NCBI RefSeq assembly: GCF_022479115.1
Contig: NZ_CP092497.1
Span: forward strand, 6,758,001-6,822,000
Reading direction: 5' to 3'
Length of the DNA: 64,000 nucleotides
From: Amycolatopsis sp. EV170708-02-1
GTDB taxonomy: Bacteria > Actinomycetota > Actinomycetes > Mycobacteriales > Pseudonocardiaceae
A program made the translations under genes and the position numbers. The notes beneath the pieces were generated by a model. It was not told where the DNA came from. It searched no databases and was given only the letters and a program-made list of their open reading frames with translations. This document shows, piece by piece, positions 6,956-26,168 of the stretch (the first letter of the stretch is position 1; each line of letters starts with the position of its first letter).

Positions 6956-6962
6956 GGTGGCC

Positions 6963-7952: not shown

Positions 7953-7956
7953 CAAG

Positions 7957-8002
7957 CTCGTGAGTGGCAAGGACGGTTAGAACCGTCCTTGCCACTCACG
8001 AG
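7957..8002. terminator. Bidirectional terminator, palindromic repeat copy 1
   Basis: Perfect inverted arms of 22 bases (7957-7978 and 7981-8002) with a two-base centre. It fills the gap between the convergent oxidoreductase (stop 7952) and FAD monooxygenase (stop codon 8006-8008). A near-identical copy occupies the same position between another convergent pair at 14864-14911. Confidence 0.85.
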
Positions 8003-8005
8003 ACG

Positions 8006-9493
8006 TCACCCGAACCAGGCGGCGAGGGCTTCACGCAGGCCCTCGGCGTCGTCTCCGGCCCAGGCGACGTAGCCGTCCGGGCGGATCAGGAGGACGTCGG
8101 CGGGCCGGTCCTCGGCCTTCGCGGTGTGGACGTCCACGTGCCCTCGCGCGAGTTCGCGGAGTTCCGGTCGCCCGGCGAGGTCGAGCAGGACCGGCCGCGC
8201 CGCCCGCAGCAGCCCGGCGACGCTGGTCGGACCGTCGTCGGTCTCCAGGGCGAGCTCCGGGACGAACGTGCCGGCGAGCGCGTGCGCGGAACCGGGCATC
8301 GGGTAGCGCGTGTCGGTCCCGGCGACATGGGAGGCCAGGCGTCGCGCGGCCTGCTCGTCGTCCAGCAGTTCCTGGAAGACCGCGCGCAGCGCTTCGGCGG
8401 CTTCGTCGTGCCCTCGCCGCAACGCGACCTGCGCCCGGGACTGCAGGAGCGCACGCGCACCGGCGGCGTGCCGTTCCGCGTGATAGGTGTCCAGCAGCCC
8501 TTCCGGCGCCCGGCCCTGGATCTCGGCGGCCAGCTTCCAGGCGAGGTTGACCGAGTCGGACATGCCGACGTTGATCGCCGTGCCGGTGGAGGGCAGCAGG
8601 TGGGCCGCGTCGCCCGCCAGCAGGATCCGGCCTTCGCGGTAGCGCTCGGCCTGGCGGGCGGAGAACTGGTAGCGCGAGAGCCGGACCGGTTCGCCCAGCG
8701 GGACGTCCCCGCCGAGCACGCGGCGGATGCTGTCCCCGAGTTCGGCCAGGGTCATCGGCACGTCGTCGTCGACCTCGCCGGGATCGTCCTCCGTGGTCTG
8801 GATGAACAGGATCCCCGGTGTCAGCGAACCGAGCGCGAACACGCCCGCGTCGGTGCGCGTGAAGCCCGCCTTGATCCGGCCCAGCTCCGGCGTTTCGATG
8901 TCGCCGTCGTCGTGCACGGTCAGCCCCTCGGGGATCTTGACCTGCCCGATCCGGTTGACCTCGGGATAGGTGGTGCCGGGGAACCCGATCCCCGCCATCG
9001 ACCGGACGGGACTGCGCCCGCCGTCGCAGCCCACCAGATACGGGGCGGTGACCTCGTACGCCCCGTCCGGGCCGCGTACCTCGGCGGTCACCGATTCGTC
9101 GTCCTGGCGCAGCCCGACGACCTCGTGCCCGCGCCGCACTTCCGTGCCGAGTTCCGTGGCGTGCTCCTCCAGCAGCCGCTCCAGCGACTGCTGCCGGACC
9201 GAAAGCGCCTTCAGCGGCGGCTCGTCGAACCTGGTGAGGTCGACGTGGACCCCACCGAAGGGGAAGCGGTGCGGCGGCACGGGGTCGGTGAAGAGTCCCC
9301 GCACCTTCTCCAGCAGGCCGCGATGATGCAGCAGGTCCAGGATCTGCCCGCTGAGGCCGTGGGCCTTCGGAGTCTTCCCCTGTTCCGGCCGCCGTTCCAG
9401 GACCAGCGGGCGCGCACCGGCCAGCCGCAGTTCGGCGGCCAGCATCAGACCGGTCGGGCCGGCACCCACGATGATCACGTCGACGTCCGTCAA
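8006..9493 (-). CDS. FAD-dependent aromatic hydroxylase/monooxygenase
   Basis: Protein of 495 residues of the PHBH-fold class A flavoprotein monooxygenases. Visible are the Rossmann motif VIIVGAGPTGLMLAAEL, the DG motif in VGCDGGRSPVR and the FAD-ribityl motif GRILLAGDAAHLLPS. The thioredoxin-like C-terminal extension, ending LIRPDGYVAWAG, is typical of polyketide, rifampicin or phenolic hydroxylases. The substrate cannot be told. It stands alone: divergent from the secreted peptidase and convergent to the pyrimidine operon. Confidence 0.92.
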   Translation of the reverse strand: MTDVDVIIVGAGPTGLMLAAELRLAGARPLVLERRPEQGKTPKAHGLSGQILDLLHHRGLLEKVRGLFTDPVPPHRFPFGGVHVDLTRFDEPPLKALSVRQQSLERLLEEHATELGTEVRRGHEVVGLRQDDESVTAEVRGPDGAYEVTAPYLVGCDGGRSPVRSMAGIGFPGTTYPEVNRIGQVKIPEGLTVHDDGDIETPELGRIKAGFTRTDAGVFALGSLTPGILFIQTTEDDPGEVDDDVPMTLAELGDSIRRVLGGDVPLGEPVRLSRYQFSARQAERYREGRILLAGDAAHLLPSTGTAINVGMSDSVNLAWKLAAEIQGRAPEGLLDTYHAERHAAGARALLQSRAQVALRRGHDEAAEALRAVFQELLDDEQAARRLASHVAGTDTRYPMPGSAHALAGTFVPELALETDDGPTSVAGLLRAARPVLLDLAGRPELRELARGHVDVHTAKAEDRPADVLLIRPDGYVAWAGDDAEGLREALAAWFG

Positions 9494-9667
9494 ATCTTCA
9501 CTCCTGTTCGGCCTGTTCTGGCTACGGCCGAGGATTCTGCGGTATCACCGGGGTCTTGCCGCAAGCCCCCCGGTGCGCTATATGTTGAACATGGAGGGGC
9601 GTACCCCACCATTTTTCCGGGTACGAGCACCAGGGATCGCGCGCCCGCGAGGCGAGACGCTGGCCCG

Positions 9668-11125
9668 GTGACCAGAATCCGCATCGCCACTGTGCTCACT
9701 CTCACCGCGCTCGCCGCCGTCACGCTCACGCCCGCGGTTTCGGCCGCGCCGAAAGGTCTCGCCTGGGGTCCCTGCCCGTCCGGCTCGCCACCGGGCTACG
9801 ACTGCGCCGAGATCGAGGTCCCGTTGTCCTATCAGGACCCCGGCGGACCTCGGATCACCATCGCGCTCGGCCGTCTTCCCGCGACGGACCAGAAGCACAA
9901 ACGCGGCACCCTCTTCACCAATCCCGGCGGCCCCGGGAATCCCGGCCGGTTCACCAAATTCCAGACCCCGTCCCTGCACCGGCAGTTCGACATCGTCGGC
10001 TTCGACCCGCGCGGTGTCGGCGCCAGCACCCCGGTCCGCTGCTTCGCGTCCGACGCCGAGACCGAGCCGCTCAAACGGGTTCTGGGGAACTTCCCGATCA
10101 CCGCGGAGCAGGAGACCCGGCATTTCGCCGACGTCCGTGAAGTCGCCGCCTCCTGCGGCCGCAACGCCGGGCCGCTACTGGGACACCTGTCCACCGCGAA
10201 CGTCGCCAGGGATCTCGACAGGCTGCGCGAAGCCGTCGGCGAGCCCCGCCTGCGCTACTACGGGCTTTCCTACGGCACCTATCTCGGTGAGGTGTACGCC
10301 AACCTGTTCCCGCATCGCGTCGGCGCCTTGGCGCTGGACGCCGTCAACGATCCGATCGCCTGGTCCACCGGGCACCGGCCGGAGGACGCGAACGTCCCGT
10401 TCAGCACCCGGCTCGGCGGCTTCCGGGACGCGGACCGCGCGCTCCAGGCGTTCCTCGACGCGTGCGCGGCCGACACCCGGTGCGCGTTCCGCGAACCCGG
10501 GACCGATCTACGGGCCAAGTACGACGCGCTCCTCGACCGGCTCGAAGCCACGCCGGGTCCGGTCACCTATCAGGAGGTCATCCGGCGCACCCACAGCGCG
10601 CTCACCGACGAGGCCCGCTCCCCCGCGCTGGCGGAATTCCTCCAGTCCGCGACGAAACCCGCCGCGGCCGTCGCGACCCCTTTCGATTCCGCGATGGGTG
10701 GCGGCGGGACGATCTGCGCGGACACCACGAACCCGCGTGACCCGGCCGCCTGGCCTCGCGCGGCCAAGGCGAGTGACCGGGAAAGCCGCGGTTTCGGTTC
10801 GTACGACGCGTATCTCTCCCTGCCGTGCGCCTTCTGGCCCGCCGCCGATCCGGCGCGGTACACGGGACCGTGGAACCGGCCGACCGCGCCGATCCTGTTG
10901 CTGGCCAACGGCAAGGGCGACCCGGAAACCCCGTACGCCGGGGCGAAGCGCACCGAACGCATCCTCGGCAACGCCCGGCTCCTGACGCTGGACGCCTGGG
11001 GGCACGGCGCCGCGAACCGCAGCGCGTGTGTCGACGCGGCTCTCGACGCCTATCTGGCCCATGGCCGTCTTCCGGAGCGCGGCACCGTCTGTGCCCCGGA
11101 TCACGCGCCTTTCGACGCCAGGTAG
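9668..11125 (+). CDS. Secreted alpha/beta hydrolase, S33 tripeptidyl-aminopeptidase type
   Basis: Protein of 485 residues from the GTG at 9668. The first 27 residues form a Sec signal peptide ending AVSAA. The hydrolase fold has the oxyanion segment FTNPGGPGNPG, the FDPRGVGAS strand, the nucleophile GLSYGTYLG and the catalytic His in WGHGA, plus the C-terminal TAP-like domain. Members of this family cleave N-terminal tri- or dipeptides outside the cell. The gene is monocistronic, with the divergent promoter region at 9494-9667. The start is not preceded by a strong ribosome site. Confidence 0.9.
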   Translation: MTRIRIATVLTLTALAAVTLTPAVSAAPKGLAWGPCPSGSPPGYDCAEIEVPLSYQDPGGPRITIALGRLPATDQKHKRGTLFTNPGGPGNPGRFTKFQTPSLHRQFDIVGFDPRGVGASTPVRCFASDAETEPLKRVLGNFPITAEQETRHFADVREVAASCGRNAGPLLGHLSTANVARDLDRLREAVGEPRLRYYGLSYGTYLGEVYANLFPHRVGALALDAVNDPIAWSTGHRPEDANVPFSTRLGGFRDADRALQAFLDACAADTRCAFREPGTDLRAKYDALLDRLEATPGPVTYQEVIRRTHSALTDEARSPALAEFLQSATKPAAAVATPFDSAMGGGGTICADTTNPRDPAAWPRAAKASDRESRGFGSYDAYLSLPCAFWPAADPARYTGPWNRPTAPILLLANGKGDPETPYAGAKRTERILGNARLLTLDAWGHGAANRSACVDAALDAYLAHGRLPERGTVCAPDHAPFDAR

Positions 11126-14210: not shown

Positions 14211-14888
14211 GTGAGCAGGCCCCGGCGTCGCGCCGAGAAACCCGTGCTGTCCCAGGAGCTCGTGGTGAAGACGGCACTGGACCTCCTCGCCAGGGAAGGG
14301 CTGGAGGCGGTGAGCATGCGATGTGTGGCCAAGGCGCTGGAGACCGGCCCGGCGTCGCTCTACGCCCATGTCGCGAACAAGGAAGAGCTCCACGAGCTGA
14401 TGGTCGACCACGTCCTCGCCTTCGGCCCGTTCCCCGAGCCGGATCCGGATCGCTGGGTCGAGCAGGCGAAGGAGCTGCTGCGCGACAACGTGCGCGCGCT
14501 GACGTCGGTCCCCGGGATCGCCAAGATCGCGTGGGCCATCCCCGTCCCGGTCGGCGCGAACGCCCTGCAGCAGGCCGAAGCGATGCTCGCGGTCCTGCGC
14601 GCGGGCGGCCTCGACCTCAAGCGGGCTCTGTTCGCCGCCGACGCTTTATGGCTCTATGCCAAGGCTTTCGCCTACGAGGGCGCCGGCTGGCAACACGGCG
14701 ACATCGACCTCGCCGAGCAGGAACAGCGCGGCAGGCGGATGGTCGAGTACATGACGTCGTTCCCGCCCGGCGCCTTCCCGAACCTGCTGGGCGCGGGCGA
14801 GTACTTCACCGCGGAGACCGCGCAGGAGCGGTTCGAGTTCGCCATCGACCTCTTCCTGCGCGGCCTCGTGAGCGGCAAGGACGGTTAG
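14211..14888 (+). CDS. TetR/AcrR-family transcriptional regulator
   Basis: Protein of 225 residues from the GTG at 14211, with AGGAGG eight bases upstream. The N-terminal helix-turn-helix reads TALDLLAREGLEAVSMRCVAKALETGPASLYAHVANKEEL in order, and the rest matches a TetR_C-type ligand domain. It probably represses itself and the divergent SnoaL-SRPBCC(-SIP) genes. Its last codons, encoding VSGKDG and the stop, lie inside the left arm and centre of a palindromic terminator. That palindrome has therefore been recruited as coding sequence. Confidence 0.9.
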   Translation: MSRPRRRAEKPVLSQELVVKTALDLLAREGLEAVSMRCVAKALETGPASLYAHVANKEELHELMVDHVLAFGPFPEPDPDRWVEQAKELLRDNVRALTSVPGIAKIAWAIPVPVGANALQQAEAMLAVLRAGGLDLKRALFAADALWLYAKAFAYEGAGWQHGDIDLAEQEQRGRRMVEYMTSFPPGAFPNLLGAGEYFTAETAQERFEFAIDLFLRGLVSGKDG

Positions 14889-14913: not shown

Positions 14914-15936
14914 TCAGAGCAGCGCGACCGCCGCCGCGTACTGCGGCACGAGATGCGCCCCCAGCGAGGCCTTCATCTCCGACATCTTCTTCCCGAACAC
15001 CACCTGCGGCCGCCCGGTCTCGATCGCCCAGCGCACCACTTCGCCGTAGAAGTGGAAGTACAGATTGGGGCGTCCGCCGAGCTCCGGTGGCAACGCCGCC
15101 CAGTGCCGCGCGACCGGCAGGGCCGGGTGGTCGAGCAGGGTCGCGACGGCGATCGCCCGTCCGGTGGCGGTCTCGCGGTACTCGATGACGTGCACATCCG
15201 GCTGGCGCAGCAGCGCGCCGACGTAACCCACGAACGCCGGCAGCGGCACGATCGGCACATCGTGGTGTTTGGTTTCGTTGTGCCGCAACAGTTCCGCGAT
15301 CTCGACCGGATCGGCCTCGGCCCCCGGCCGCACCCGCACCCCGAGCGACGGATCGGCCTCGAAGGTGCGGAAGATCTTGCGCAGGTTCTGTTTGCGCTTC
15401 CTGGCCAGCGAATGCATCCAGTCGTCCCGGCCGGAGAACGGCGAGACGTCGAGGACGGCCACGTCCTCCGTCCGGCGCACCATCTTCGGCCCGCCGCGGA
15501 CACTGTCCACTCCGGACTCGCCGACCTGGCGCACCAGCAGTGCGCGCAGACCGAACCCGAGTTCCGCGCGCATGGCGGGGACGAAGGTGTCCAGCAGCCT
15601 GCCGACGCCGCCGTCGTCGTCCTCGCCGTCGAACCACCAGCCCGGCATGGCCCCCGCGCCCGGGGACCGGACGTCGAGCCCGCCGAGCCGTCCCCGGCCC
15701 GCCGTGCGGGCGAACCGGTGCCGCCGGGTGAGCCCGGTGACCCACGCGGAGCTGACCACGCCACGCGGTTCGCCGCCTTCGAGCAGGACCGTGACCGGTT
15801 GCTCGGTGCGCGCCGACCACGCCTGGGTGGTGAGCACCTCCCAGCTCCAGTCCGCCCGCAGTCCCGCCTTGGCCCGCAACGGTTTCCAATACGCGGGCTC
15901 CGGGTCGCGGCGGGGGTCCAGCACCTCGATCACCAT
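14914..15936 (-). CDS. FemAB/GNAT-fold acyltransferase paralogue 1
   Basis: Protein of 340 residues, the last and most divergent of four tandem paralogues. The N-terminus, VIEVLDPRRDPEPAYW, matches the others. The C-terminal half has LARKRKQNLRKI, LRQPDVHVIEYRE, LLDHPALPVARHWAALP, LYFHFYGEVV and FGKKMSEMKASLG. The layout (two GNAT-like halves, conserved K-ASLG near the end) resembles the BioF2-like/FemAB-like acetyltransferase group, which moves acyl or aminoacyl groups. Donor and acceptor are unknown. The ATG overlaps the upstream paralogue's stop by seven bases. It lacks the GRGL motif of two of its sisters. Confidence 0.78.
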   Translation of the reverse strand: MVIEVLDPRRDPEPAYWKPLRAKAGLRADWSWEVLTTQAWSARTEQPVTVLLEGGEPRGVVSSAWVTGLTRRHRFARTAGRGRLGGLDVRSPGAGAMPGWWFDGEDDDGGVGRLLDTFVPAMRAELGFGLRALLVRQVGESGVDSVRGGPKMVRRTEDVAVLDVSPFSGRDDWMHSLARKRKQNLRKIFRTFEADPSLGVRVRPGAEADPVEIAELLRHNETKHHDVPIVPLPAFVGYVGALLRQPDVHVIEYRETATGRAIAVATLLDHPALPVARHWAALPPELGGRPNLYFHFYGEVVRWAIETGRPQVVFGKKMSEMKASLGAHLVPQYAAAVALL

Positions 15937-16973
15937 CGCGTCACCGGCCTCGGCACGATGACCCCGAGCAGCGGCACCGGCTGGAACCCCAGCGTCGCCT
16001 TGAGGTCGGTCAGCCCCCGGCCCATCGAGAGGGACTTCCGGTTGCCCTCGATCATGTAACGCACGTTGCGGACGACCGCTTCGAAGTAGAGGTGCTTCGG
16101 CCGTCCTTCCTCCGGGGCGAGCGCGGCCCAATGCTGGTGCAGCGGCGCGACCGGGTGGTCGAGCACGTTGGTGAACGCGAGCAGCCTGCCCTCGCCGTCG
16201 TGGTAGGTCGAGGTGATCACGTCCGGCCTGCGCACGAGTTCGCCGAGGTATTCGGCGGTGACGGGACCGCGCCGGTCGAATTTCACCGGCCCCATCCGCT
16301 CGCGGTGCTCCCGCAGCAGCGTGGCCAGTTCCAGCGCGTCGAGGTCGGTGCGGGCGGCTTCGGTGCGGACGACCACGTCCGGGTCGGCGGCGATCTTCTT
16401 CGACTGGCCGCGCAGGCTCAGCCGCCTGCTCCGGCGCAGGGACGCCAGCCATCCCTCGACGTCGACGAAACGGTTCTCCAGCACCGACGTCGGCATCGTG
16501 TCGCGAACGGGCCTGCCCCGTCCGGTCAGCATGTCGAGCGACTCCGGCGGGACGGTGCGGTAGACGACGCCGAGACAGCCCGGCCCGGTGAAACGGCCGA
16601 CGGCCCGCTCGAACCGGCGCATGATCTCCCGCCGGTCGGCGGCGTCGACGCCGTCGGCGAACAGCCACGGCGGGTATCCGGAAAGCCACGCGTGCTGCAC
16701 CTCGACCCAGCGCGGACCCAGCCGGGCCAGTCCGCGCACGGCACCGGGACCTTCCGGGGAGATCGGGGCGCACAGCATCGCCAATACCGCGGCGACGATC
16801 TCGCCGCCGTCGCTGATCACGGTGAGCACGGTGGGGCTGCGCGAAAAGCGGGACTCCACCCGCAGCAACCCGTAGTCCCAGGGGACCGGGGCCTGCTGCG
16901 CGCCGAGGAATCCGGCCCAGCCCTCGGGTTCCGGATCGGTCCGCGGGTCGAGCACCCGCACTTCCCAGGTCAT
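15930..16973 (-). CDS. FemAB/GNAT-fold acyltransferase paralogue 2
   Basis: Protein of 347 residues. It shares with its neighbours the start VRVLDPRTDPEPEGW, an N-terminal half with VQHAWLSGYP and RRFERAVGRF, and a C-terminal half with LRRSRRLSLRG, VRRPDVITSTYHDGEGRLLA, LDHPVAPLHQHWAALAPEEG and MGRGLTDLKATLGF. It ends in VPRPVTRW. It starts with an ATG overlapping the stop of paralogue 3 by four bases. No membrane helix is seen, so it acts in the cytoplasm, probably before export of the substrate. The exact reaction is not known. Confidence 0.78.
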   Translation of the reverse strand: MTWEVRVLDPRTDPEPEGWAGFLGAQQAPVPWDYGLLRVESRFSRSPTVLTVISDGGEIVAAVLAMLCAPISPEGPGAVRGLARLGPRWVEVQHAWLSGYPPWLFADGVDAADRREIMRRFERAVGRFTGPGCLGVVYRTVPPESLDMLTGRGRPVRDTMPTSVLENRFVDVEGWLASLRRSRRLSLRGQSKKIAADPDVVVRTEAARTDLDALELATLLREHRERMGPVKFDRRGPVTAEYLGELVRRPDVITSTYHDGEGRLLAFTNVLDHPVAPLHQHWAALAPEEGRPKHLYFEAVVRNVRYMIEGNRKSLSMGRGLTDLKATLGFQPVPLLGVIVPRPVTRW

Positions 16974-18073
16974 CGGCCCAGCACCGGTCTCGGTACCGCG
17001 ACCGACACCAGGGACCTGGTGCCGAAGCCGAGCGGGGTCTTGTTCTCCAGCATCGCCCGGCCGGCGGTCAGCTCGGGGCGCCGACGCGTGATCATGTGCT
17101 CCACTCCCCTGGCGTAGAAGTCGACATAGAGCCCTTTCCGTCCACCGGCCGCGCTCGGCAGCGCGGCCCACTGGTGCAGCGCGCAGCCGTCGTCGGCGTC
17201 GAAGATCGTGCCGAATCCCAGCAGCCGCCCGGATCCGTCGCGGTAGGTACGGGTGAGGACGTCCGGGCGGCTGATCAACGCGTCCAGATAGGACGGCGCG
17301 ATCGGGCTCCGGGTGTCCATGTGCAGCCCGCCGAACCGCGACCGTTGCCCGCCGGCCCAGGCCCGGTCGTCCTGCCTGCCCCGATGGGCATTGAGCAGCA
17401 CGGCGAGTTCGTGGCAGTCCAGGTCCCGGCGGGCGGTGGCCGCCTCGGTGCGCAGGTCCCCGTCTTCCCGCAGTTCGTGCAGCGTCTTCCGGGTCTCGTC
17501 GCCGAGCACCCGTTCCCAATCGTCCACAGTGGAGTATTCGTTGGCCAGCACGGCGGCCGGATCGATCTCCCGGGACATCCGGCCGCGGCCGTCCAGCGCC
17601 GGGAGGAGCTCCGGGTTCATCGCGCGGTAGATCAAGCCCAGCAATCCGGGGCCGAGGTGGGCGCACAGGGCCCGTTCGAACCGGCGGACCACCTCCCGCC
17701 GTTCGGCCTCGTCCAGCCGTTCGTCGAGTACGCCGGCCGGGTAGCCGCTGAGCTGCCAGAGGTAGGCCTCGGCCCAGCGCGGGCGGAACCGTCCACCGAG
17801 GACGGACAACGGCGCGAAGTCCCCCGCCCGCCAGCTCCGGCACACCATCACGGTGAACGCGCCGACGATCGTCCCGTTCCGGCGGAGCACCGCGAGTACC
17901 GCGGGATTCTTCGCCATCCAGGCTTCCCGGCGCAGGACGTCGTACTCCCAGACCGGCCACAACCTCGCCCGCCGCAGGAACCCGCTCCAGCCCTCGGGTT
18001 CGGCGGCCGTCCTCGGATCGAGCACCTCGGCCTCGAACACGGTGCTTCTCTCCGCCACCTTCATCGTCACCAT
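16970..18073 (-). CDS. FemAB/GNAT-fold acyltransferase paralogue 3
   Basis: Protein of 367 residues from the ATG at 18073; the ATG at 18064 is an alternative. It carries the shared pattern VEAEVLDPRT-type start (here FEAEVLDPRTAAEPEGW), YLWQLSGYP, RRFERALCAH, ISRPDVLTRTYRDGSGRLLG, LHQWAALPSAAGGRKGLYVDFY and a C-terminus VAVPRPVLGR. An insertion near residue 245 (GGQRSRFGGLHM) distinguishes it. The ATG overlaps the stop of paralogue 4 by seven bases, the same junction as between paralogues 2 and 1. This argues for duplication of whole gene units. Confidence 0.78.
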   Translation of the reverse strand: MVTMKVAERSTVFEAEVLDPRTAAEPEGWSGFLRRARLWPVWEYDVLRREAWMAKNPAVLAVLRRNGTIVGAFTVMVCRSWRAGDFAPLSVLGGRFRPRWAEAYLWQLSGYPAGVLDERLDEAERREVVRRFERALCAHLGPGLLGLIYRAMNPELLPALDGRGRMSREIDPAAVLANEYSTVDDWERVLGDETRKTLHELREDGDLRTEAATARRDLDCHELAVLLNAHRGRQDDRAWAGGQRSRFGGLHMDTRSPIAPSYLDALISRPDVLTRTYRDGSGRLLGFGTIFDADDGCALHQWAALPSAAGGRKGLYVDFYARGVEHMITRRRPELTAGRAMLENKTPLGFGTRSLVSVAVPRPVLGR

Positions 18074-19104
18074 CCCAGTACCGGTCTCGGCACGGCCGCG
18101 GAGTACACCGGGCGCGCCCGGAAACCCAGCGTGGCCTTGAGTTCGGGCAGCCCGCGCCCGGCGGTGAGCTCCTTGACCCCGCGCCGCGTGACGTAGCGCA
18201 TGGCGTGGATGTAGGAGTCGAACAGCAGTCCCCGCCGCCCGCCTTCGTCCACCGGCAAGGTGCCCCAATGCTGTTTCACCGGGCTGTCCGGATGATCGAG
18301 CAAGGTGTTCACCGCGAGCAGCCTGCCGTCCGCGCCGGTGTAGGTCAGCGTGTGCACATCGGGCCGGCGGAGGAACCGGCGCAGGAACGCGGCGGAGGGC
18401 GGCGTCCTGGTGTCGAGCGCGAGCTTGCCGTGCCGGTCGCGATGTCGCTGGAGGAGGGCCGCGACCTCGGCGCTGTCGAGGTCTTCCCGGCCGGCACCAC
18501 CGGCGACCACGACACCGGGATCGTCGGCGAGCCTGCGCCGTTGCCGTCGCAGCCCACCCCGCCGCGACTTGGGCAGCGAAGCGATCCATTCGTCTTCCGA
18601 GGCGAAGCGGTTTTCCAGCACCGCCACCGAATCGACGGCCTTCACCAGCCGGCCGCGGCCCTGGAGGTCACGGGCGATGTCGTGCCCCAACGCCCGGTAC
18701 AGCACTCCGAGCAGCGCGGGACCGAGCTTCCGGCGCAAGGACCGTTCGAATTCCCGGATCAGCGGACGCCGGTCGGTGTCGGTGATCCCCGGCGCGAACG
18801 CGAGCCCCGGGTAGCCGCTCAGCCAGGGCTGGCACACCTCGGCCCAGAACGGGCGCAGCAACCGATGCCCCGGCGTCGGCGCGAAGCGGGATCGCAGCCG
18901 GGGACGGCACACCAGCACCGAAAACGCCGCGACGATCCGGGCACCGTCCGTGACGGTGGCGAGCACCGGCGGATTCCGCGCGGTCCAGGCGTCGAGCCCC
19001 AGCACGTCGTAGTCCCACACCGGATGCAGGCGGGCGGCACGGAAGAAGTCCGGCCAGCCCGCGGGAACGGGATCGGTGCGAGGGTCGTGGAAAGCCGTCT
19101 TCAC
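18067..19104 (-). CDS. FemAB/GNAT-fold acyltransferase paralogue 4
   Basis: Protein of 345 residues from the GTG at 19104, which overlaps the upstream stop by four bases (GTGA). It has FHDPRTDPVPAGW, CQPWLSGYP, REFERSLRRKLGPALLG, LPKSRRGGLRRQRRRL, LRRPDVHTLTYTGADGRLLA, LLDHPDSPVKQHWGTLPVDEGGR, and the end GRGLPELKATLGF ... VPRPVLGW. It is closest to paralogue 2. The four copies could each add a different group to one acceptor, or act in sequence as Fem enzymes do on peptidoglycan bridges; that is inference. Confidence 0.78.
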   Translation of the reverse strand: MKTAFHDPRTDPVPAGWPDFFRAARLHPVWDYDVLGLDAWTARNPPVLATVTDGARIVAAFSVLVCRPRLRSRFAPTPGHRLLRPFWAEVCQPWLSGYPGLAFAPGITDTDRRPLIREFERSLRRKLGPALLGVLYRALGHDIARDLQGRGRLVKAVDSVAVLENRFASEDEWIASLPKSRRGGLRRQRRRLADDPGVVVAGGAGREDLDSAEVAALLQRHRDRHGKLALDTRTPPSAAFLRRFLRRPDVHTLTYTGADGRLLAVNTLLDHPDSPVKQHWGTLPVDEGGRRGLLFDSYIHAMRYVTRRGVKELTAGRGLPELKATLGFRARPVYSAAVPRPVLGW

Positions 19105-19877
19105 GTGAGCACGACCGGCGTCCCGTGTCGCGGGCACGGCGCGATCTCACCACGGACGCCACCGGCGGGCAGCACGTCCACGAACCGCGGGGAATCCTGT
19201 CGCAGCAGCGTGAACGCGAGACCGCCCGTCGTCGGGCGCGCGTAGACACGCGGCCAGTCGAGGTGCCAGCGACCGCACGCTTCGATCGCGCCCAGGTAGC
19301 CCAGCGCGGGATCGTGGAGCACCCCGTACGGGCCGGAGTCCATTGTGTCCAGTTCCCGTCGCGGTACGGATTCGACCCGGTACGCACGGTCTTCGGGCAA
19401 GGCCGCGGCGAAGACGGCCAGCTGCTTGTCTTCGCCGACCGCGAGCACGCGACGGCCGCGGCGAAGCGCGGAGGACAGTTCCGCCAGCACGCTCGGCGCC
19501 GGGACGTCGGGATCCACCACACAGCAACGAACCCCGCGCGGCAGATCCGACGGCGGACGCACCCCGTCCCCGCCGAGCACCACGACCAGTGCGTCCCCGC
19601 TCACCGAACGTGCCTTACGCAGCACGGGCCCCAGGCCCCGGCTCGGCTCGATCCGTTGCGCGCCACCGGCGAGCGGTACCAGGTCGACGATCTTGTGCAC
19701 CGCCTCGGCCAGTGGCGCCGCGCCGGAATCCGTCCCGGTGCGACCGGGCACCAGCACGGGATCCGTTCTGCCGTCCAGAGCCCAGCGTTCCCGGTAGAAC
19801 GGCACAGTCGCGAAGGCCGACCGCACGGACCGCCGATAGGCAGCCCGCCAGGCAGCACTCACCCCCACAGTCCACAT
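19101..19877 (-). CDS. Unrecognised protein heading the acyltransferase operon
   Basis: Protein of 258 residues from the ATG at 19877; the frame is open further to 20117 but that would run through the divergent promoter region. I do not recognise a family with confidence. The N-terminal AAYRRSVRSAFATVPFYRERW resembles the opening of phenylacetate-CoA ligase-like adenylating enzymes. The C-terminus has FTLLRQDSPRFVDVL and CPRHGTPVV, but no ATP-binding core is visible. It may be a shortened adenylate-forming enzyme or a new family. It is translationally coupled to the four acyltransferases, so it probably supplies or hands over their substrate. Confidence 0.6.
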   Translation of the reverse strand: MWTVGVSAAWRAAYRRSVRSAFATVPFYRERWALDGRTDPVLVPGRTGTDSGAAPLAEAVHKIVDLVPLAGGAQRIEPSRGLGPVLRKARSVSGDALVVVLGGDGVRPPSDLPRGVRCCVVDPDVPAPSVLAELSSALRRGRRVLAVGEDKQLAVFAAALPEDRAYRVESVPRRELDTMDSGPYGVLHDPALGYLGAIEACGRWHLDWPRVYARPTTGGLAFTLLRQDSPRFVDVLPAGGVRGEIAPCPRHGTPVVLT

Positions 19878-20020
19878 GGCGCGCAAGCCTGCGTCATCGT
19901 CGCCGGTTTGGGAATACCCCGCGCCGGGTTCATCCGGTTTTCGGCCGACTTCCCACCTTTTCGACTGAGCTGAAAGGACGAACTTGCGGAATCCGCTGGC
20001 GGGAACAAAGCGAGTCTGCC

Positions 20021-20026
20021 TATAAC
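20021..20026 (+). promoter_or_regulatory. Weak -10 candidate for the glycan operon
   Basis: The hexamer TATAAC stands out in the 270-base gap (19878-20147) between the two divergent operons, about 120 bases before the glycosyltransferase start. No convincing -35 element is seen. The gap otherwise shows no clear operator. Confidence 0.2.
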
Positions 20027-20147
20027 ACGGGAACTTTCGAGCCGGCACGACCTGCCGGACGCCTGGGGCAAGGGGACTCATGAACCGTGAAAACACAACG
20101 CGTGACGCTACGAACACAATAGCGCACTCACCGCAGGGATTCGATAG

Positions 20148-22382
20148 ATGAGCTGGTCGATCCCCGGCCCGGCGGAAAGCGGACTCACCGTAGTCGTCCC
20201 GTGCTTCAACGAAGTCGACAACGTCGAGCCCTCATACCAGGAGATCGTCGCCGAGTTGGGAAATCTCCCACTCGAACTGCTCTACGTGGACGACGGGAGC
20301 ACCGACGGGACACTGGACGTCATCCGGGCGCTCGCCCACACCGACCCCCGGGTGCGGTACCTGTCCTTCACCCGGAACTTCGGGTTCGAAGCGGCCTTTT
20401 CCGCGGGCTATCGGTACGCGGGGAAACCCTGGCTCCTGCACATGGACGCCGATCAGCAGTTCCCGGCCGCCGAAGCGGGGAAACTGATCACCGCGGCCGA
20501 GGCGGGCAACGACGCCGTTTTCGGAGTTCGCACCAATAGGAAAGACCCCTTACTAAGACGGTGGGGTACCGCCGCCTTCCATTTCCTCGGCCGCCGTGTC
20601 CTGCGTATCGAGATCCCGCCAGGCGCGACGGCGTTCCGCCTGGTCCGCACGGAGCTTGCGCGCAAGATCGTCGATCTCCGGCTGGGCACCCCGTACTTCC
20701 TCGCCACCGTGCCGAAGCTGACCAGCCGCTACACCACCGTCCAGGTGGCACACCGGGCCCGCGAACGCGGCGAGTCCAAAGTCGGTTTCGGGTTTCTTTC
20801 CTCGCACGCCATCGAGTTGTTCGTCGGCTTCACCCGGCGGCTGACGACGGTGGCCTCGGCCACGGCGGTGCTGACCGCCGGGATCTCGGTGCTCGCCGGG
20901 ATCGCGGCCGCCACCGGGCTGCTCGGGCTGACCGCCGCGTCGGCGCTGACCTTCGTCATGTTCTCCGTGCTGCTGACCGTGCTCGCGTTGTCCGTCCGCT
21001 ACCTGGTCGTGGTCGGCGCGGGGCAGGCGCGGCCACGGCAGTTCTACATCAGGGAAGCCAACTTCCCGGTCGACGAGGACGACCGGCTCTACACCTCGGC
21101 CACGGCCGGGATCCATCCTGGGGAAAGGCAAGCGGCAGTGAAGAACACCGAAGACACGGCGGCGGTACGGAGCCTGGTGATCCTGGGCGGCGCCGACGGC
21201 TCGGTCAGCACGTATCACCGGGCGCGGGAACTGGGGTTCCGCACCATCTGCGTGGACGTCCGCGCGAGCGCGCCGGCGGTGGCACTGGCCGACGAGTTCG
21301 TCCAGGTCAGCGTCCGCGCGCCGGAACAGATCGCGGCGGCGCTCGAGGGCCGGGACGACATCGCCGGCGTGCTCTGCCCGGCCAGCGACGTCGGGCTGCC
21401 CGCGCTCGCCTGGCTCACCCGGCACTGGAACCTGCCCGACCCGTTGCCCGAAGCCGCGGTCGCCGCTTCCGTCGACAAGTCCGTCTTCCGTGAACTCTGC
21501 GACAGGCTGCGTCTGCCGACGTACCGCAGCGTCGGCGGGAAGCCCGGCCCGGATCTCGCGCTCGCCGCGCAGCAGTTGCGGTTCCCGACACTGGTGAAAC
21601 CGGTCGACTCCTCCGGGAGCCGCGGTGTCGTCTCGTGCGCCAGCCCCGGCGGCCTCACCACCGCGTTCTCCGACTCCCTCGCGTTCTCGCCGTCCGGCAA
21701 GCTGGTCGTCGAGGAACACCTCGACGGCTCGCACTACACGATCGAAGCCCTCGCCGTCGACGGCCGGATCGTGTTCCACGCGGTCACCCGGCGCACGCTG
21801 ACGCCGCCGCCGTTCTTCGTGACGGCGTCGCATCTGCTGCCCGCCGGGCTGCCGCCGGTGGTCGACCGCGCGCTGCCGGTGATGCTGGGCGCGTTGTGCG
21901 CCGAGCTCGGGTACCGCACCGGGCCGCTCACCCTCGACGCGGTTTTGGGCCGTGACGGGAAGTTCTACCTGATCGAGATGGGCGCCCGGATGGGCGGGAA
22001 CGGCCTGGCCGAAGCGATCGAGCACAGCACGGGCGTCGACCTGATCGCCGCGGGGATCGCCGCCGCGACCGGTGGCGAGGTCGTGCTCTCCCCGCGCGAC
22101 CCACGACCGACGCTCATCCACATCCTCGCCTCCGACCGCGCCGGCCGGATCGTGCGCATCGAAGGCACGGACGAGGTCCGCGCCATGCCCGCGGTGCACA
22201 ACCTGGAACTGTTCGCGGAGGAGGACTCCTACGTCAAACCGTACGAGCAGGCCGGCTACAAGATGGGTTACGCCGTGCTTTCGGCGCCGACCGTGCCCGA
22301 GGTGCTCGCCGCGGAGGACGAATTGCGCGGCACGCTGAAGTTCCTGCTCGACGAGCAGGGTGCGGCGGTACCGCTCCCTTGA
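20148..22382 (+). CDS. GT2 glycosyltransferase fused to ATP-grasp ligase
   Basis: One uninterrupted frame of 744 residues. Residues 1 to about 320 form a GtrB/DPM1-like family 2 glycosyltransferase: VVVPCFNEVDN, YVDDGSTDGT, the metal site MDADQQ, and two C-terminal membrane helices (about 235-260 and 265-290). Such enzymes load sugars on polyprenyl phosphate. Residues about 340-744 form an ATP-grasp enzyme: LVILGGADG, KPVDSSGSRGV, VVEEHLDGSHYTIEAL and the metal site EMGARMGGNGLAEA. A GTG at 21138 within a GTGA string marks the likely ancestral start of a separate ligase. AGGGA precedes the ATG. The fusion is unusual; the ligase would join a carboxylate to an amine or similar group. Confidence 0.85.
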   Translation: MSWSIPGPAESGLTVVVPCFNEVDNVEPSYQEIVAELGNLPLELLYVDDGSTDGTLDVIRALAHTDPRVRYLSFTRNFGFEAAFSAGYRYAGKPWLLHMDADQQFPAAEAGKLITAAEAGNDAVFGVRTNRKDPLLRRWGTAAFHFLGRRVLRIEIPPGATAFRLVRTELARKIVDLRLGTPYFLATVPKLTSRYTTVQVAHRARERGESKVGFGFLSSHAIELFVGFTRRLTTVASATAVLTAGISVLAGIAAATGLLGLTAASALTFVMFSVLLTVLALSVRYLVVVGAGQARPRQFYIREANFPVDEDDRLYTSATAGIHPGERQAAVKNTEDTAAVRSLVILGGADGSVSTYHRARELGFRTICVDVRASAPAVALADEFVQVSVRAPEQIAAALEGRDDIAGVLCPASDVGLPALAWLTRHWNLPDPLPEAAVAASVDKSVFRELCDRLRLPTYRSVGGKPGPDLALAAQQLRFPTLVKPVDSSGSRGVVSCASPGGLTTAFSDSLAFSPSGKLVVEEHLDGSHYTIEALAVDGRIVFHAVTRRTLTPPPFFVTASHLLPAGLPPVVDRALPVMLGALCAELGYRTGPLTLDAVLGRDGKFYLIEMGARMGGNGLAEAIEHSTGVDLIAAGIAAATGGEVVLSPRDPRPTLIHILASDRAGRIVRIEGTDEVRAMPAVHNLELFAEEDSYVKPYEQAGYKMGYAVLSAPTVPEVLAAEDELRGTLKFLLDEQGAAVPLP

Positions 22383-23656
22383 CCGGCACTTCGCTCACCG
22401 GCGCCGGCACCGCGTCGATCGCGGCGCCGAAGCCGTCGATGGTGCTCCGGCTGCTCGCCGGACGCGGCGTGTTCCGGCTGGCGATCCAGGCGATGGGCCT
22501 GGTGCTGGTCACCGCGTGGGGCGCGCACGACTACGGCCGGTTCGCCACCGCGCTCGGGCTGATGACATGGCTCAACTTCGTGCCGTCGGCGGCGGAGAAG
22601 TCGGCGCTGAAGTGCTTGCCGCGCCTGCGGATGACCCGGGACGCGGTCGCGGCCCTCGCCGTTCGCGTCGCCGTCGTCCCGGTGCTGGTGGTGCTGGCGG
22701 CGATGGCGGTGGCGCTGATCGCCGCGCCGGACTCGGACGCCGCGCTGTACCTCACGGCCGCGGGCTGGTCGATCTCCGGTGGCCTGCTGATGACGGTCTC
22801 CGGCCTGCACCGGTTCACCGGTAAGTCCACTTTGGACGCTCTCGCGTTCACCGCGGGCGCGGTGGTGGTCGGCGCGGTGACGGTGGGCACCTGGTTCATC
22901 GGCTGGTCGCCGTTGACACACCTCGGCCTGTTGCTCGGCGGGATCCTGCTCATCCTCGGCTTCTCCGCGGCGCTGCTGCCGAGAAAGTGGCTTCGGGTGC
23001 ACAAGATCGACGGGCACCGGCTCCTGCCCGCGTTCGGCCGGACCACGGTGCTGCTCGGGATGACCGAGGTGCTGGACGTGCTCGCGACGTCGACGGTGTT
23101 CGGCGTGCTGGCGCTGGCCGGGCGGACCGTCGACAGTGGACCGTTCTACGTCGCCTTGCTGGCCAGTAGCGCGTTCTGTTCGCTGCTGTTCTATCAGCTC
23201 CGCGTGCACCAGCCGTCGATCTCGGCGCGGCTGCGCGGCGGCGGGGCGGCGGCGGGCCGGGCCCGTGCGGTCGAACTGCTGAAACTGGTCGAACGGGGCG
23301 CGCTCGCGTTCCTCGTCCTGGTGGGGATCGCGCTCGCCATCCCGGCGGCCCGCGCGGTGCTGACCGCCGAAGACACCGTCGGCGCGTACGTGGTCCTCGG
23401 CGTCTTCGTCCTGGTCGAAACGGTGCTGTTCGCCGTCCGGCTCTACGCGGGCTTCCTGATCGAAAACACCAACAGCAAGGTCCTCACGCTCACGGCGTCG
23501 GCCTCGATCGCCGGGCTGGTCGCCACCCCGCTGGCCGCCGCCGCGCTCGTCCCGGCGATGGGACCGGTCGGCGGATTCGCCGCCCTCGTCTTCGCCATCG
23601 GCACCCGGGCGATCGTCCTCCGGCGGCTGCTGCGCCGCCACCACCCCGAACTCTGA
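22379..23656 (+). CDS. Polysaccharide/lipid-linked oligosaccharide flippase (MOP superfamily)
   Basis: Protein of 425 residues from a TTG that overlaps the previous stop (TTGA); an ATG at 22439 is the alternative start. About 12 hydrophobic helices begin with GRGVFRLAIQAMGLVLVTAWGAHDYGRF, a layout typical of Wzx/RfbX-type flippases, with the charged RRLLRRHH tail in the cytoplasm. It should flip the polyprenyl-linked product of the adjacent glycosyltransferase across the membrane. Its presence indicates that the cluster's product is exported as a lipid-linked glycan. Confidence 0.82.
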   Translation: MTGTSLTGAGTASIAAPKPSMVLRLLAGRGVFRLAIQAMGLVLVTAWGAHDYGRFATALGLMTWLNFVPSAAEKSALKCLPRLRMTRDAVAALAVRVAVVPVLVVLAAMAVALIAAPDSDAALYLTAAGWSISGGLLMTVSGLHRFTGKSTLDALAFTAGAVVVGAVTVGTWFIGWSPLTHLGLLLGGILLILGFSAALLPRKWLRVHKIDGHRLLPAFGRTTVLLGMTEVLDVLATSTVFGVLALAGRTVDSGPFYVALLASSAFCSLLFYQLRVHQPSISARLRGGGAAAGRARAVELLKLVERGALAFLVLVGIALAIPAARAVLTAEDTVGAYVVLGVFVLVETVLFAVRLYAGFLIENTNSKVLTLTASASIAGLVATPLAAAALVPAMGPVGGFAALVFAIGTRAIVLRRLLRRHHPEL

Positions 23657-23676
23657 ACGTCGCACTGGAGAAGGAA

Positions 23677-25479
23677 ATGTACGTACTGGGAATCAGCAGG
23701 GTCCACGACTCGGCCGCCGCGCTCGTGCGCGACGGCGAGATCATCGCTTTCGCCGAAGAAGAACGCTTCACCCGGAAGAAGCACGACGGGGACTTCCCCG
23801 CGGAGGCGATCAAGTTCTGCCTGGAGCGCGGCGGGATCACCCTCGCCGACGTCGACCACGTCGCCTACTACTGGCAGCGCTGGCGCGAAGGCATCCACGC
23901 GGCGAAGGTGTTCGCGAAGTACTTCCCGGGAACGCTGGAGGTGTTCCGCAACCAGAACGGCGACGAGGGCGGCTCGTCGGCCGGCATGGTGGAGACGTTC
24001 AAGACCGGTGGTGGCAAAGGCGTCGACGACTACCATGTCGGCGGCGCGGTGCTCGCGCACATCAAGCGGTCCTTCACGCTCGAACGCGACGTGAAGGAGG
24101 CCGTGGGCTGGACCGGCCCGACGAAGTTCAAGACGCATCTGGTCGACCACCACAAGGCGCACGCCGCCAGCGGGTACTTCATCTCGCCGTGGGAAGAGTC
24201 GGCGGTGCTCACCTTCGACGGTATCGGCAGCGACGGCACCGCGACCTATCTGGGGCACGGCAAGGGAAACCGGATCATCGACATCCGGCGGATCAAGTTC
24301 CCGCACTCGCTCGGCGCGATGTACGCCGGCGTCACCGGCTATCTGGGCTTCTACCCCACCCGTGACGAAGGCAAGATCATGGGGCTGGCGCCGCTCGGCA
24401 ACGACACCTACGTCGACGCGTTCAAGCAGCTGATCCACCTCGACGACGACGGCGGGTACGAGCTCGAACTGAGCTTCTTCGGCCACCACCGCACCGGCAA
24501 GCACGTGATGTCGGAGAAGTTCACCGACCTCTTCGGCCCGGCACGGCCCAAGACCCGGGTCACCGCGGAGAACCCGGTGCCGCAGCACTACTGCGACATC
24601 GCCTACGCGCTGCAGGTCACCTTGGAGGAGGCCGGGCTGCACATCGCGCGGTGGCTGCAGCGGGAGACGGGATCGCGGCGGCTGTCCGTCGCGGGCGGTG
24701 TCGCGCTGAACAGCGTGATGAACGGCCGGATCCTGCTGGAAACCCCGTTCGAGGACTTCTTCGCCCAGCCCGCGGCGGCCGACGACGGCTGCGCGCTCGG
24801 TTCGGCGCTGGAGGTGTCGGTCGGCAAGTACGGCAAGCCCCGTCCTCGCGACGGCTACACCTACACCGGCCCGGACTACACCGAGGCGGAGATGGAGCTG
24901 GCGCTGCAGGACGCCGGGGTCCGCTACACCAAGGTCGACGACATCGCCGCGCACACGGCGAAGAAGATCTCCGAGGGCAAGATCATCGGCTGGGTGCAGG
25001 GCCGGATGGAATGCGGGCCGCGCGCGCTCGGCAACCGTTCGCTGGTGGCCGACCCGCGCGACCCCGACTCGAAGACGCGGATGAACGAGAAGGTCAAGCA
25101 CCGCGAGGCCTTCCGGCCGTTCGCGCCGTCGTGCCTGGCGGAACGCGCGGGCGACTGGTTCGTCAGCGACTACCCGTCGCCGGTCATGCTGCTGGTGTTC
25201 GACGTCCTGCCGGACAAACGCGACGAGGTGCCGGCCATCACCCACGTCGACGGGACCGCCCGCGTGCAGACGGTGACCGAAGCCGACAACCCGCTGTACT
25301 ACCGGATGATCAGCGAGTTCGAGAAGCTCACCGGCGTGCCGATGGTGGTCAACACCTCGTTCAACGACAACAACGAACCGATCGTCGCCAGCCCGGCCGA
25401 CGCGGTGGCCTGCTACCTCAAGACCGACGTCGACGCCCTCGCCCTCGGGCCGTTCTGGGCAGAGAAGGACGACCTGTGA
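23677..25479 (+). CDS. O-carbamoyltransferase, NodU/CmcH family
   Basis: Protein of 600 residues, the usual family length. The N-terminal Kae1/YrdC-related ASKHA part has MYVLGISRVHDSAAALV, the metal ligands VDHHKAHAAS, LTFDGIGSDGT and GLAPLG, and SVAGGVALNSVMNG. The C-terminal domain has WVQGRMECGPRALGNRS and NTSFNDNNEPIV. These enzymes use carbamoyl phosphate and ATP to carbamoylate a hydroxyl, often on a sugar. GGAGAAGG lies just before the ATG. In this operon a carbamoyl group on the glycan or its lipid-linked precursor is the natural inference. Confidence 0.93.
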   Translation: MYVLGISRVHDSAAALVRDGEIIAFAEEERFTRKKHDGDFPAEAIKFCLERGGITLADVDHVAYYWQRWREGIHAAKVFAKYFPGTLEVFRNQNGDEGGSSAGMVETFKTGGGKGVDDYHVGGAVLAHIKRSFTLERDVKEAVGWTGPTKFKTHLVDHHKAHAASGYFISPWEESAVLTFDGIGSDGTATYLGHGKGNRIIDIRRIKFPHSLGAMYAGVTGYLGFYPTRDEGKIMGLAPLGNDTYVDAFKQLIHLDDDGGYELELSFFGHHRTGKHVMSEKFTDLFGPARPKTRVTAENPVPQHYCDIAYALQVTLEEAGLHIARWLQRETGSRRLSVAGGVALNSVMNGRILLETPFEDFFAQPAAADDGCALGSALEVSVGKYGKPRPRDGYTYTGPDYTEAEMELALQDAGVRYTKVDDIAAHTAKKISEGKIIGWVQGRMECGPRALGNRSLVADPRDPDSKTRMNEKVKHREAFRPFAPSCLAERAGDWFVSDYPSPVMLLVFDVLPDKRDEVPAITHVDGTARVQTVTEADNPLYYRMISEFEKLTGVPMVVNTSFNDNNEPIVASPADAVACYLKTDVDALALGPFWAEKDDL

Positions 25480-26168
25480 CCGCCACACTGCCCGACACGG
25501 ACGGCTGGATCCCCGCGCTCTACCGGCGGCGCAAATGGCTGTGGCTGGTGGCCGCCGTCCCGGCCGTGGTGACGACGCTGCTGATCATGGTGATCCTGCC
25601 GCCGGACCAGACGCTGGACAACGTCGCGGACTGGGCGTTCAAACTGTGCCCGTTCGTCTTCGCGGTCGCCACGGTGGCGCTGTTCCCCCGCACCAAATGG
25701 GGTCCGGCGCTGATCGTGCTCGCGGTGTTCGTCTACATGTCCTATTTGGACACCGAGCTGATCATGCGGATCCAGGCGTTCGCCAGGAACGCCGCCACCG
25801 ACGACGACGCGTTCCAGCCGGTGTACCAGTTCGAGCTGTTCATCGTGACGTTCATCGTCCTGTTCGGACTGATGGCGTACCGGCTGGGCGGCGGCCGGAC
25901 GGCGAACGTGCTCAAGGCCGGTGTCGCGTCGATCCTCGTGGTGATCTCGGGCGCGAACGACCTGACGTTCTGGGCGCTCAACGACGTCTGGGCGGCCGGG
26001 ACGAAACCGACCGAGCTCAAATGGGCGTCGCATATGATCGTGTTCCTCGGCGGGCCGCCGAGTGTCCCGGTCGCGGTGCTGTTCATGCTGGTGCACCTGG
26101 CGCTGGCGGCGGTCGTGGTGGCACTGCCGGTGGGCCGATGGGTCGACCGGGCGCTGGGGCTCAGGTGA
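25476..26168 (+). CDS. Six-helix membrane protein of unknown function
   Basis: Protein of 230 residues whose GTG start overlaps the carbamoyltransferase stop by four bases. About six hydrophobic helices are seen (near residues 22-40, 52-66, 70-88, 110-130, 142-158 and 195-220), with a short DTELIMRIQAF segment between two of them. I recognise no family. Coupling to the carbamoyltransferase suggests a membrane step such as transfer or export of the product. Its last eight bases overlap the convergent hemW stop. Confidence 0.75.
   Translation: MTATLPDTDGWIPALYRRRKWLWLVAAVPAVVTTLLIMVILPPDQTLDNVADWAFKLCPFVFAVATVALFPRTKWGPALIVLAVFVYMSYLDTELIMRIQAFARNAATDDDAFQPVYQFELFIVTFIVLFGLMAYRLGGGRTANVLKAGVASILVVISGANDLTFWALNDVWAAGTKPTELKWASHMIVFLGGPPSVPVAVLFMLVHLALAAVVVALPVGRWVDRALGLR

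Follow-up and report, generated by a model that had tools for sequence, protein, structure and literature searches.

In this work we describe a nine-gene cluster of Amycolatopsis sp. EV170708-02-1, a strain whose genome is close to Amycolatopsis keratiniphila. The analysed window is a stretch of 64,000 nucleotides (bases 6758001-6822000) from a genome of 9,660,387 bases on one contig, and all positions given below without a locus handle are those of the window. Nine open reading frames (ORFs) fill positions 14914-26168 as two divergent runs, in which stops and starts overlap or nearly so. The left operon, on the minus strand, consists of A1, F1, F2, F3 and F4, and the right one, on the plus strand, of genes for a GT2-ATP-grasp fusion protein, a MOP-like protein, a carbamoyltransferase and the membrane protein M9. 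An earlier note, made from the sequence alone, had described nine tightly coupled genes in two operons facing away from a 270-base gap, and the ORFs, their coordinates and the gap are hereby confirmed. The features are as follows (aa, amino acids; SH-aLRT, Shimodaira-Hasegawa-like approximate likelihood ratio test; pLDDT, predicted local distance difference test).

19101-19877, minus strand: A1, a 258-aa shortened protein of the PaaK fold (ANL adenylation-like), with no P-loop motif and with invariant C201-x3-H205 and C248-x2-H251
18067-19104, minus strand: F1, a FemAB-like GNAT-family transferase (Acetyltransf_6 28.7 bits, cut-off 22; own cross-genus group, SH-aLRT 86)
16970-18073, minus strand: F2, a FemAB-like paralogue (43% identity to F1; own group, SH-aLRT 94)
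15930-16973, minus strand: F3, a FemAB-like paralogue (44% identity to F1; Acetyltransf_6 below cut-off; own group, SH-aLRT 94)
14914-15936, minus strand: F4, the most divergent FemAB-like paralogue (33% identity to F1; own group)
19878-20147, no strand: divergent gap of 270 bases, with kept stretches at 19970-19985 (partly) and TATAAC at 20021-20026
20148-22382, plus strand: GT2 of the polyprenyl-phosphate glycosyltransferase type, fused to an ATP-grasp of the L-amino-acid-ligase (LAL) type (PF00535, PF13535 and PF18603 over cut-off)
22379-23656, plus strand: MOP-like polytopic membrane protein, a putative flippase (single profile-profile match; no Pfam match)
23677-25479, plus strand: O-carbamoyltransferase of the NodU/CmcH/TobZ family (Carbam_trans_N and _C; PDB 9s2t, E 9.8e-101)
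25476-26168, plus strand: M9, a six-helix membrane protein of an orphan family (no Pfam match; mean pLDDT 89.8)

The starts of F1-F4, as chosen in the analysis, each overlap the preceding stop by 4 or 7 bases, and 20 bases separate the MOP-like gene from the carbamoyltransferase gene. Third-position GC rises at the chosen starts of the four F genes from 0.50-0.64 before to 0.80-0.90 after, and at that of A1 from 0.67 to 0.77; the GC content of the whole block matches its surroundings. The arrangement recurs across genera and is therefore not due to chance. Within the divergent gap TATAAC, which looks like a -10 element, is present in 12/12 aligned Amycolatopsis divergent regions, while CTGAAAGGACGAACTT at 19970-19985 recurs in Amycolatopsis relatives and is only partly kept in more distant ones. 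Pfam and NCBIfam together gave no name to A1, F2, F4, the MOP-like protein or M9.

Protein families of the nine genes

In the fusion protein Glycos_transf_2 (PF00535) scores 100.7 bits, over cut-off, followed by ATP-grasp_4 (38.8 bits, cut-off 27) and LAL_C2 (47.6 bits, cut-off 29.4), which place the ATP-grasp part by sequence in the L-amino-acid-ligase type. The PDB matches are ArnC, sll0501, 4dim and the L-amino acid ligase BL00235, and the NCBIfam PgfS model matches the GT2 with 108 bits, under its cut-off of 500. A DAD-type motif is present in 38/43 glycosyltransferase ORFs and DDGS in 29/43, some of these ORFs being shortened by the choice of start. The polyprenyl-sugar type proposed for the GT2 in the earlier note is thus borne out as a likeness: by its similarity to PgfS, ArnC and sll0501 the domain resembles carrier-lipid (polyprenyl-phosphate) glycosyltransferases. 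From the ArnC/GtrB/PgfS enzymes, with which it shares the GT2 domain, it differs in being fused or adjacent to an enzyme of the L-amino-acid-ligase type, and no GtrA-type partner was recognised in the unit; BL00235 (3vot) has the same ATP-grasp and LAL_C2 domains, whereas the window enzyme is tied to a glycosyltransferase. The fusion itself, which had been noted as a feature of the locus, holds for the window and not as a general trait. The window protein is 97% identical to its Amycolatopsis decaplanina and A. keratiniphila counterparts, and the fusion is shared by the A. orientalis group, one type II locus (L052, see below) and database proteins 741-767 aa long (37-65% identity), while in the remaining mapped loci, other genera included, GT2 and ATP-grasp are mostly separate adjacent genes.

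The carbamoyltransferase carries Carbam_trans_N (200.6 bits) and Carbam_trans_C (239.2 bits), both over cut-off, and is similar to the novobiocin, GdmN and TobZ O-carbamoyltransferases; the NCBIfam NodU model reaches 157 of the 1000 bits needed. Among 40 ORFs the HHxAHA-type motif is found in 36, DG[IVL]GSDG in 40, A(A)xDDG in 40 and GPRALGNRS in 39, which we take to be the metal and adenylate motifs with roles as in TobZ. With both domains, the kept motifs and solved relatives, the enzyme is of the NodU/CmcH kind named before. It differs from NovN, GdmN, TobZ and NodU in its company, a carrier-lipid type glycosyltransferase and a flippase-like gene.

F1-F4 had been read as four acyltransferases of the FemAB/GNAT fold, and the profiles agree: an alignment of F proteins matches a clear FemAB_like protein (locus L103) with Prob 95 and E 3.5e-8, and F2 and F4 are homologous to F1. 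Pfam (E<=0.01) finds Acetyltransf_6 in 11/30 F proteins and FemAB_like in 4/30, the Acetyltransf_6 match of F3 being below cut-off (15.3 bits, E 0.023). In a quick tree F1-F4 sort across genera into four groups that track operon position (the F4 group with SH-aLRT 88, or 99 once the two L053/L055 rows are left out), so that by sequence they appear as old paralogues in a fixed order. K323 of F1 is kept in 30/30 F proteins, and the L103 FemAB_like protein has a lysine at the aligned position. DhpH-C requires a lysine that is likened to FemX Lys305 in the part of the source available (PMC12945691), and K323 would be its equivalent. With FemX/FemA/FemB and the GNAT-fold enzymes VlmA, DhpH, DhpK, PacB and Orf11, as treated in the same part of that source (PMC12945691), the F proteins share the FemAB-like profile, the ordered paralogues and the invariant C-terminal lysine; they differ in having no PF02388 match and no solved relative by sequence.

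A1, which the earlier note had left as unrecognised, turned out to have a shortened PaaK fold and to lack the ATP-loop motif. Residues 13-323 of PaaK-type chains, which are about 425 residues long, are covered, and the last A1 residue aligns at about residue 323; the C-terminal mobile domain of PaaK-type AMP ligases is absent and A1 stops at the end of the core. The motif [ST][ST]G[ST][STA]G was found in 0/45 A1 ORFs and in 3/3 PaaK-like neighbours in locus L092, and A1 has no Pfam match at E<=1, PF00501 included. It therefore shares the fold of these ligases and departs from them in the loop motif, the length and the family match.

L092 (genome G385, another family) holds a related cluster, and within it, at 4531-10689, lie the three PaaK-like proteins of 395-428 aa. 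Their position inside this cluster suggests them as a possible source or partner of A1. One of them passes the AMP-binding cut-off, one is below it and one has no match, so that the name was given in part by reading. These neighbours, too, have C and H residues close to the place equivalent to that in A1.

The six helices of M9 stand as the earlier note had them. No relative of known structure was found, Foldseek giving no PDB match at E<=0.001 and no convincing structural match. M9 was matched in 15/298 genomes of an order sample, 14 in the family and one outside (G385), and in two further genomes of a 396-genome phylum sample, strongly in G732 and weakly and partially in G529. In L092 of G385 it is accompanied by GT2, LAL-type ATP-grasp, MOP-like and short-chain dehydrogenase/reductase (SDR) genes, one F gene and a weak A1-like gene (26.7 bits). 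In L103 of G732 it stands in a row with PF01943 flippase, FemAB_like, GNAT and ATP-grasp genes, genes for GT2 and for LPG_synthase_TM, the latter under cut-off, lying on the opposite strand. Around the match in G529 (L104) no comparable neighbourhood was seen, and for this reason it is given no weight.

For the MOP-like protein, hhalign against 30 aligned PF01943 proteins gave E 3.5e-8 and Prob 93.5 in global mode and E 1e-5 and Prob 82 in local mode; the global E-values of the controls were 0.46 for the major facilitator superfamily (MFS), 0.45 for M9 and 5.8e-37 for a Wzx set. The protein has 11 hydrophobic peaks, the same as the Wzx set. Searches of the genome with PF01943 and PF13440 (E<=10) gave no match inside the window.

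Co-inheritance, variants and genomic sites

Among 249 genomes of the family, searched with the fusion protein at E<=1e-40, the GT2/ATP-grasp gene or genes were found in 33, belonging to 7 of 46 genera. The M9 alignment matches the identical 33 genomes, and the A1 alignment 34, namely the same 33 and, partially, G136 (model positions 126-261 of 262). A1, GT2/ATP-grasp and M9 lie near one another in 33/33. Carbamoyltransferase matches above 1000 bits occur in 25 genomes, all inside the 33, and three further genomes give only about 340 bits (28/249 at E<=1e-100). In those 25 genomes GT2, carbamoyltransferase and M9 share a strand and A1 is on the other one, the matches being separated by a few kilobases. 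Gene maps were drawn for 43 fetched loci, some of which represent one contig twice (e.g. L038/L059, L041/L066, L047/L078, L048/L074, L049/L075). A1 (by tblastn) and M9 are present in each of the 43, the MOP-like gene in 42 (not L051) and the carbamoyltransferase in 40 (not the type II loci L052, L056 and L057), with two to four F copies per locus.

The earlier note would have been refuted by the two operons lying apart in most genomes; left and right are together in 33/33 genomes, so that this check does not refute it, and the nine-gene set is one real unit of two operons. It is very improbable that F1-F4 and A1 are cytosolic enzymes with no relation to a glycan operon that they merely adjoin. 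As such a reading would have it, one A1-F1 pair (G066, contig 34, L094) stands away from the other genes and G136 has a partial A1 on its own, but the complete pairing in the 33 genomes, at several different genomic sites, speaks against it. The lone A1-like gene of G136 (L093, 9584-10243) encodes 219 aa; the rest of the cluster is absent among the matches listed, in the 19.9 kb fetched.

A second form of the cluster, type II, is the only one in eight genomes (G030, G078, G100, G167, G211, G220, G236, G244) and is the second copy in G045. Seven of these nine were mapped, and 7/7 contain SDR, GT2, ATP-grasp, M9, MOP-like and F genes (the SDR of L057 being named by Pfam), 6/7 a further A1-like gene (not L095), 5/7 a cysteine-rich protein (not L095 or L056) and 0/7 the carbamoyltransferase. 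A type I cluster with an SDR gene is found in two genomes of another genus (L055 by Pfam, L053 by likeness). The cysteine-rich protein, of 261-304 aa (L057 13420-14334, L052 14113-14898), has no Pfam family over cut-off.

The block is flanked in the window by the following genes.

14211-14888, plus strand: TetR-type regulator gene, left neighbour, named by reading the sequence; adjoins HemW in L152, L153 and L154
26161-27375, minus strand: HemW-type gene, right neighbour, named from a reading of the sequence; it and M9 overlap at their 3' ends by 8 bases

The HemW region was taken from eight genomes of the same genus, and both flanking genes were found in seven of them, the contig of G141 yielding no TetR gene. 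In three of the seven TetR and HemW are adjacent without the block (interval of 54 bases in G157, 163 in G183, none in G015), and in the other four the interval is likewise without the cluster, at about 1.0 kb (G171), 1.0 kb (G194), 1.1 kb (G239) and 3.9 kb (G214); the G239 cluster sits at another site. Six TetR-HemW intervals were compared with 13 cluster sequences. The closed site of G183 (L153) matches the 3' end of F4 over 21 bases at 95% (window, E 0.003), 22 bases (L039) or 29 bases at 90% (L060), and this F4-like remnant is possibly a deletion scar; the matches of two other closed sites lie within the flanking genes. The block thus comes and goes at the TetR-HemW site. The closed sites support the earlier note as to the place of the block between neighbouring genes; the event may have been an insertion or, given the weak 21-base match in G183, a loss.

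A proposed pathway and its alternatives

We give an even chance to the reading in which the nine genes make a carrier-lipid-linked sugar with amino-acid-like and carbamoyl groups and export it. Considering the families present (GT2, LAL-type ATP-grasp, Fem-like, O-carbamoyltransferase and MOP-like), a decorated carrier-lipid sugar with its export is the economical reading. Gene content, families, co-inheritance and paralogue order come from computation, and from family knowledge we infer every reaction, the order of steps and the roles of A1 and M9. The GT2 domain would put a sugar on polyprenyl phosphate, and the ATP-grasp domain would join an amino acid to this sugar or to its precursor. F1-F4 may then attach more aminoacyl (or acyl) units one after another, in the manner of FemX, FemA and FemB on lipid II. 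A1, next to F1, would bind or present the activated acyl group without being catalytic itself. The carbamoyltransferase would cap a hydroxyl with a carbamoyl group, the MOP-like protein would flip the lipid-linked product, and M9 might take it or pass it to an acceptor outside. Aminoacylation and carbamoylation would accordingly be placed inside the cell, with export afterwards. It is rather unlikely, as we see it, that the unit goes as far as a new class of glycoconjugate, of the envelope or secreted, with an ordered amino-acid chain put on a carrier-lipid sugar by four Fem-like transferases, the degenerate PaaK-fold protein A1 as a presenter that has ceased to form the adenylate, and M9, as a membrane enzyme from a family with no recognised relative, handing over outward.

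The openly accessible literature, subscription papers being mostly outside the search, yielded no pathway with such a composition, in accordance with what the earlier note had said. The parts are mostly of known kinds, while for the combination, A1 and M9 no description was found in open papers. What is at hand is a bounded unit of nine genes that is passed on as a block in bacteria known for antibiotics, in which carrier-lipid sugar chemistry would meet Fem-type amino-acid addition and carbamoylation, and which includes in A1 and M9 two families without a traced function. Solving one of these, or the A1-F pair that adjoins peptide synthetase genes in one genome, would annotate the others.

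Several results weigh against the decorated carrier-lipid sugar. The flippase assignment, given as a MOP flippase before, stands on one profile-profile match: 0/17 MOP-like members match Pfam at E<=0.01, the window protein having only a chance-like match, NCBIfam gives no useful match, hmmsearch with the 30-protein PF01943 profile gives every MOP-like ORF a negative score, as it does the MFS controls, a four-sequence flippase profile reaches only E 0.03, and the local hhalign E against MFS is 0.084. L051 is without a MOP-like gene, though the second, type II cluster of the same genome (L052, G045) has one, which may serve both. F2 and F4 have no Pfam match at E<=1, sequence searches of solved structures match no F protein, and the F donor could be aminoacyl-tRNA, acyl-CoA or other. 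Carbamoylation is not part of the core, because eight genomes have only the type II cluster, without a close carbamoyltransferase. No polymerase or ligase was recognised in the unit. Among the nine genes Pfam and NCBIfam found neither a polymerase nor an initiating phosphosugar transferase, the MOP-like protein and M9 being without a model and polymerases being hard to recognise. Finally, the A1-F1 pair adjoining nonribosomal peptide synthetase (NRPS) genes in one genome (L094) would fit a natural product equally.

With a single recognised glycosyltransferase and no recognised polymerase, the unit might also be a modification system, which moves one decorated sugar from the carrier to an existing envelope polymer or protein glycan. 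In Haloferax, AglD makes dolichol-phosphate mannose, and AglR is involved in its passage across the membrane, as the available part of the source states (PMC3871713). The AglD-AglR-AglS mannose branch of Haloferax volcanii, as presented there, resembles the window in combining a lipid-phosphate sugar synthase with a flippase-like partner, and with a further membrane protein the set has the logic of single-sugar transfer; the same part of the source mentions no amino-acid or carbamoyl decoration for this branch (PMC3871713). We regard this explanation as improbable, considering that the unit contains no recognisable outer-face transferase and that M9 has no convincing structural match.

The main rival to the decorated carrier-lipid sugar is a secreted natural product. 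It would be a small compound, peptidyl or glycosyl in nature and assembled on a carrier or free, with the MOP-like protein exporting it and the carbamoyl group as late tailoring. Presence is patchy (9/17 genomes of the same genus), several genomic sites are used, the tailoring genes vary (two to four F copies; carbamoyltransferase or SDR), and the nearest solved structures of the O-carbamoyltransferase are antibiotic enzymes. In several antibiotics GNAT-fold transferases form amide bonds, according to the available part of PMC12945691. Against this stand the absence of NRPS and polyketide synthase genes among the nine (Pfam, NCBIfam), the lipid-carrier type of the GT2 by similarity, and the M9 of a distant family, which adjoins flippase, FemAB_like and ATP-grasp genes with no carbamoyltransferase in view. 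We hold this rival possible, though on the whole we doubt it. It is a real one because A1-F1 and aspartate decarboxylase adjoin NRPS genes in one genome, G066. Its main cluster (L055; 14904-15560) is followed by aspartate decarboxylase and MbtH genes (Pfam) and an NRPS gene (named by reading), and on contig 34 (L094, 4755-11272) the A1-F1 pair comes after NRPS, MbtH, ABC, LAL-type ATP-grasp and aspartate decarboxylase genes.

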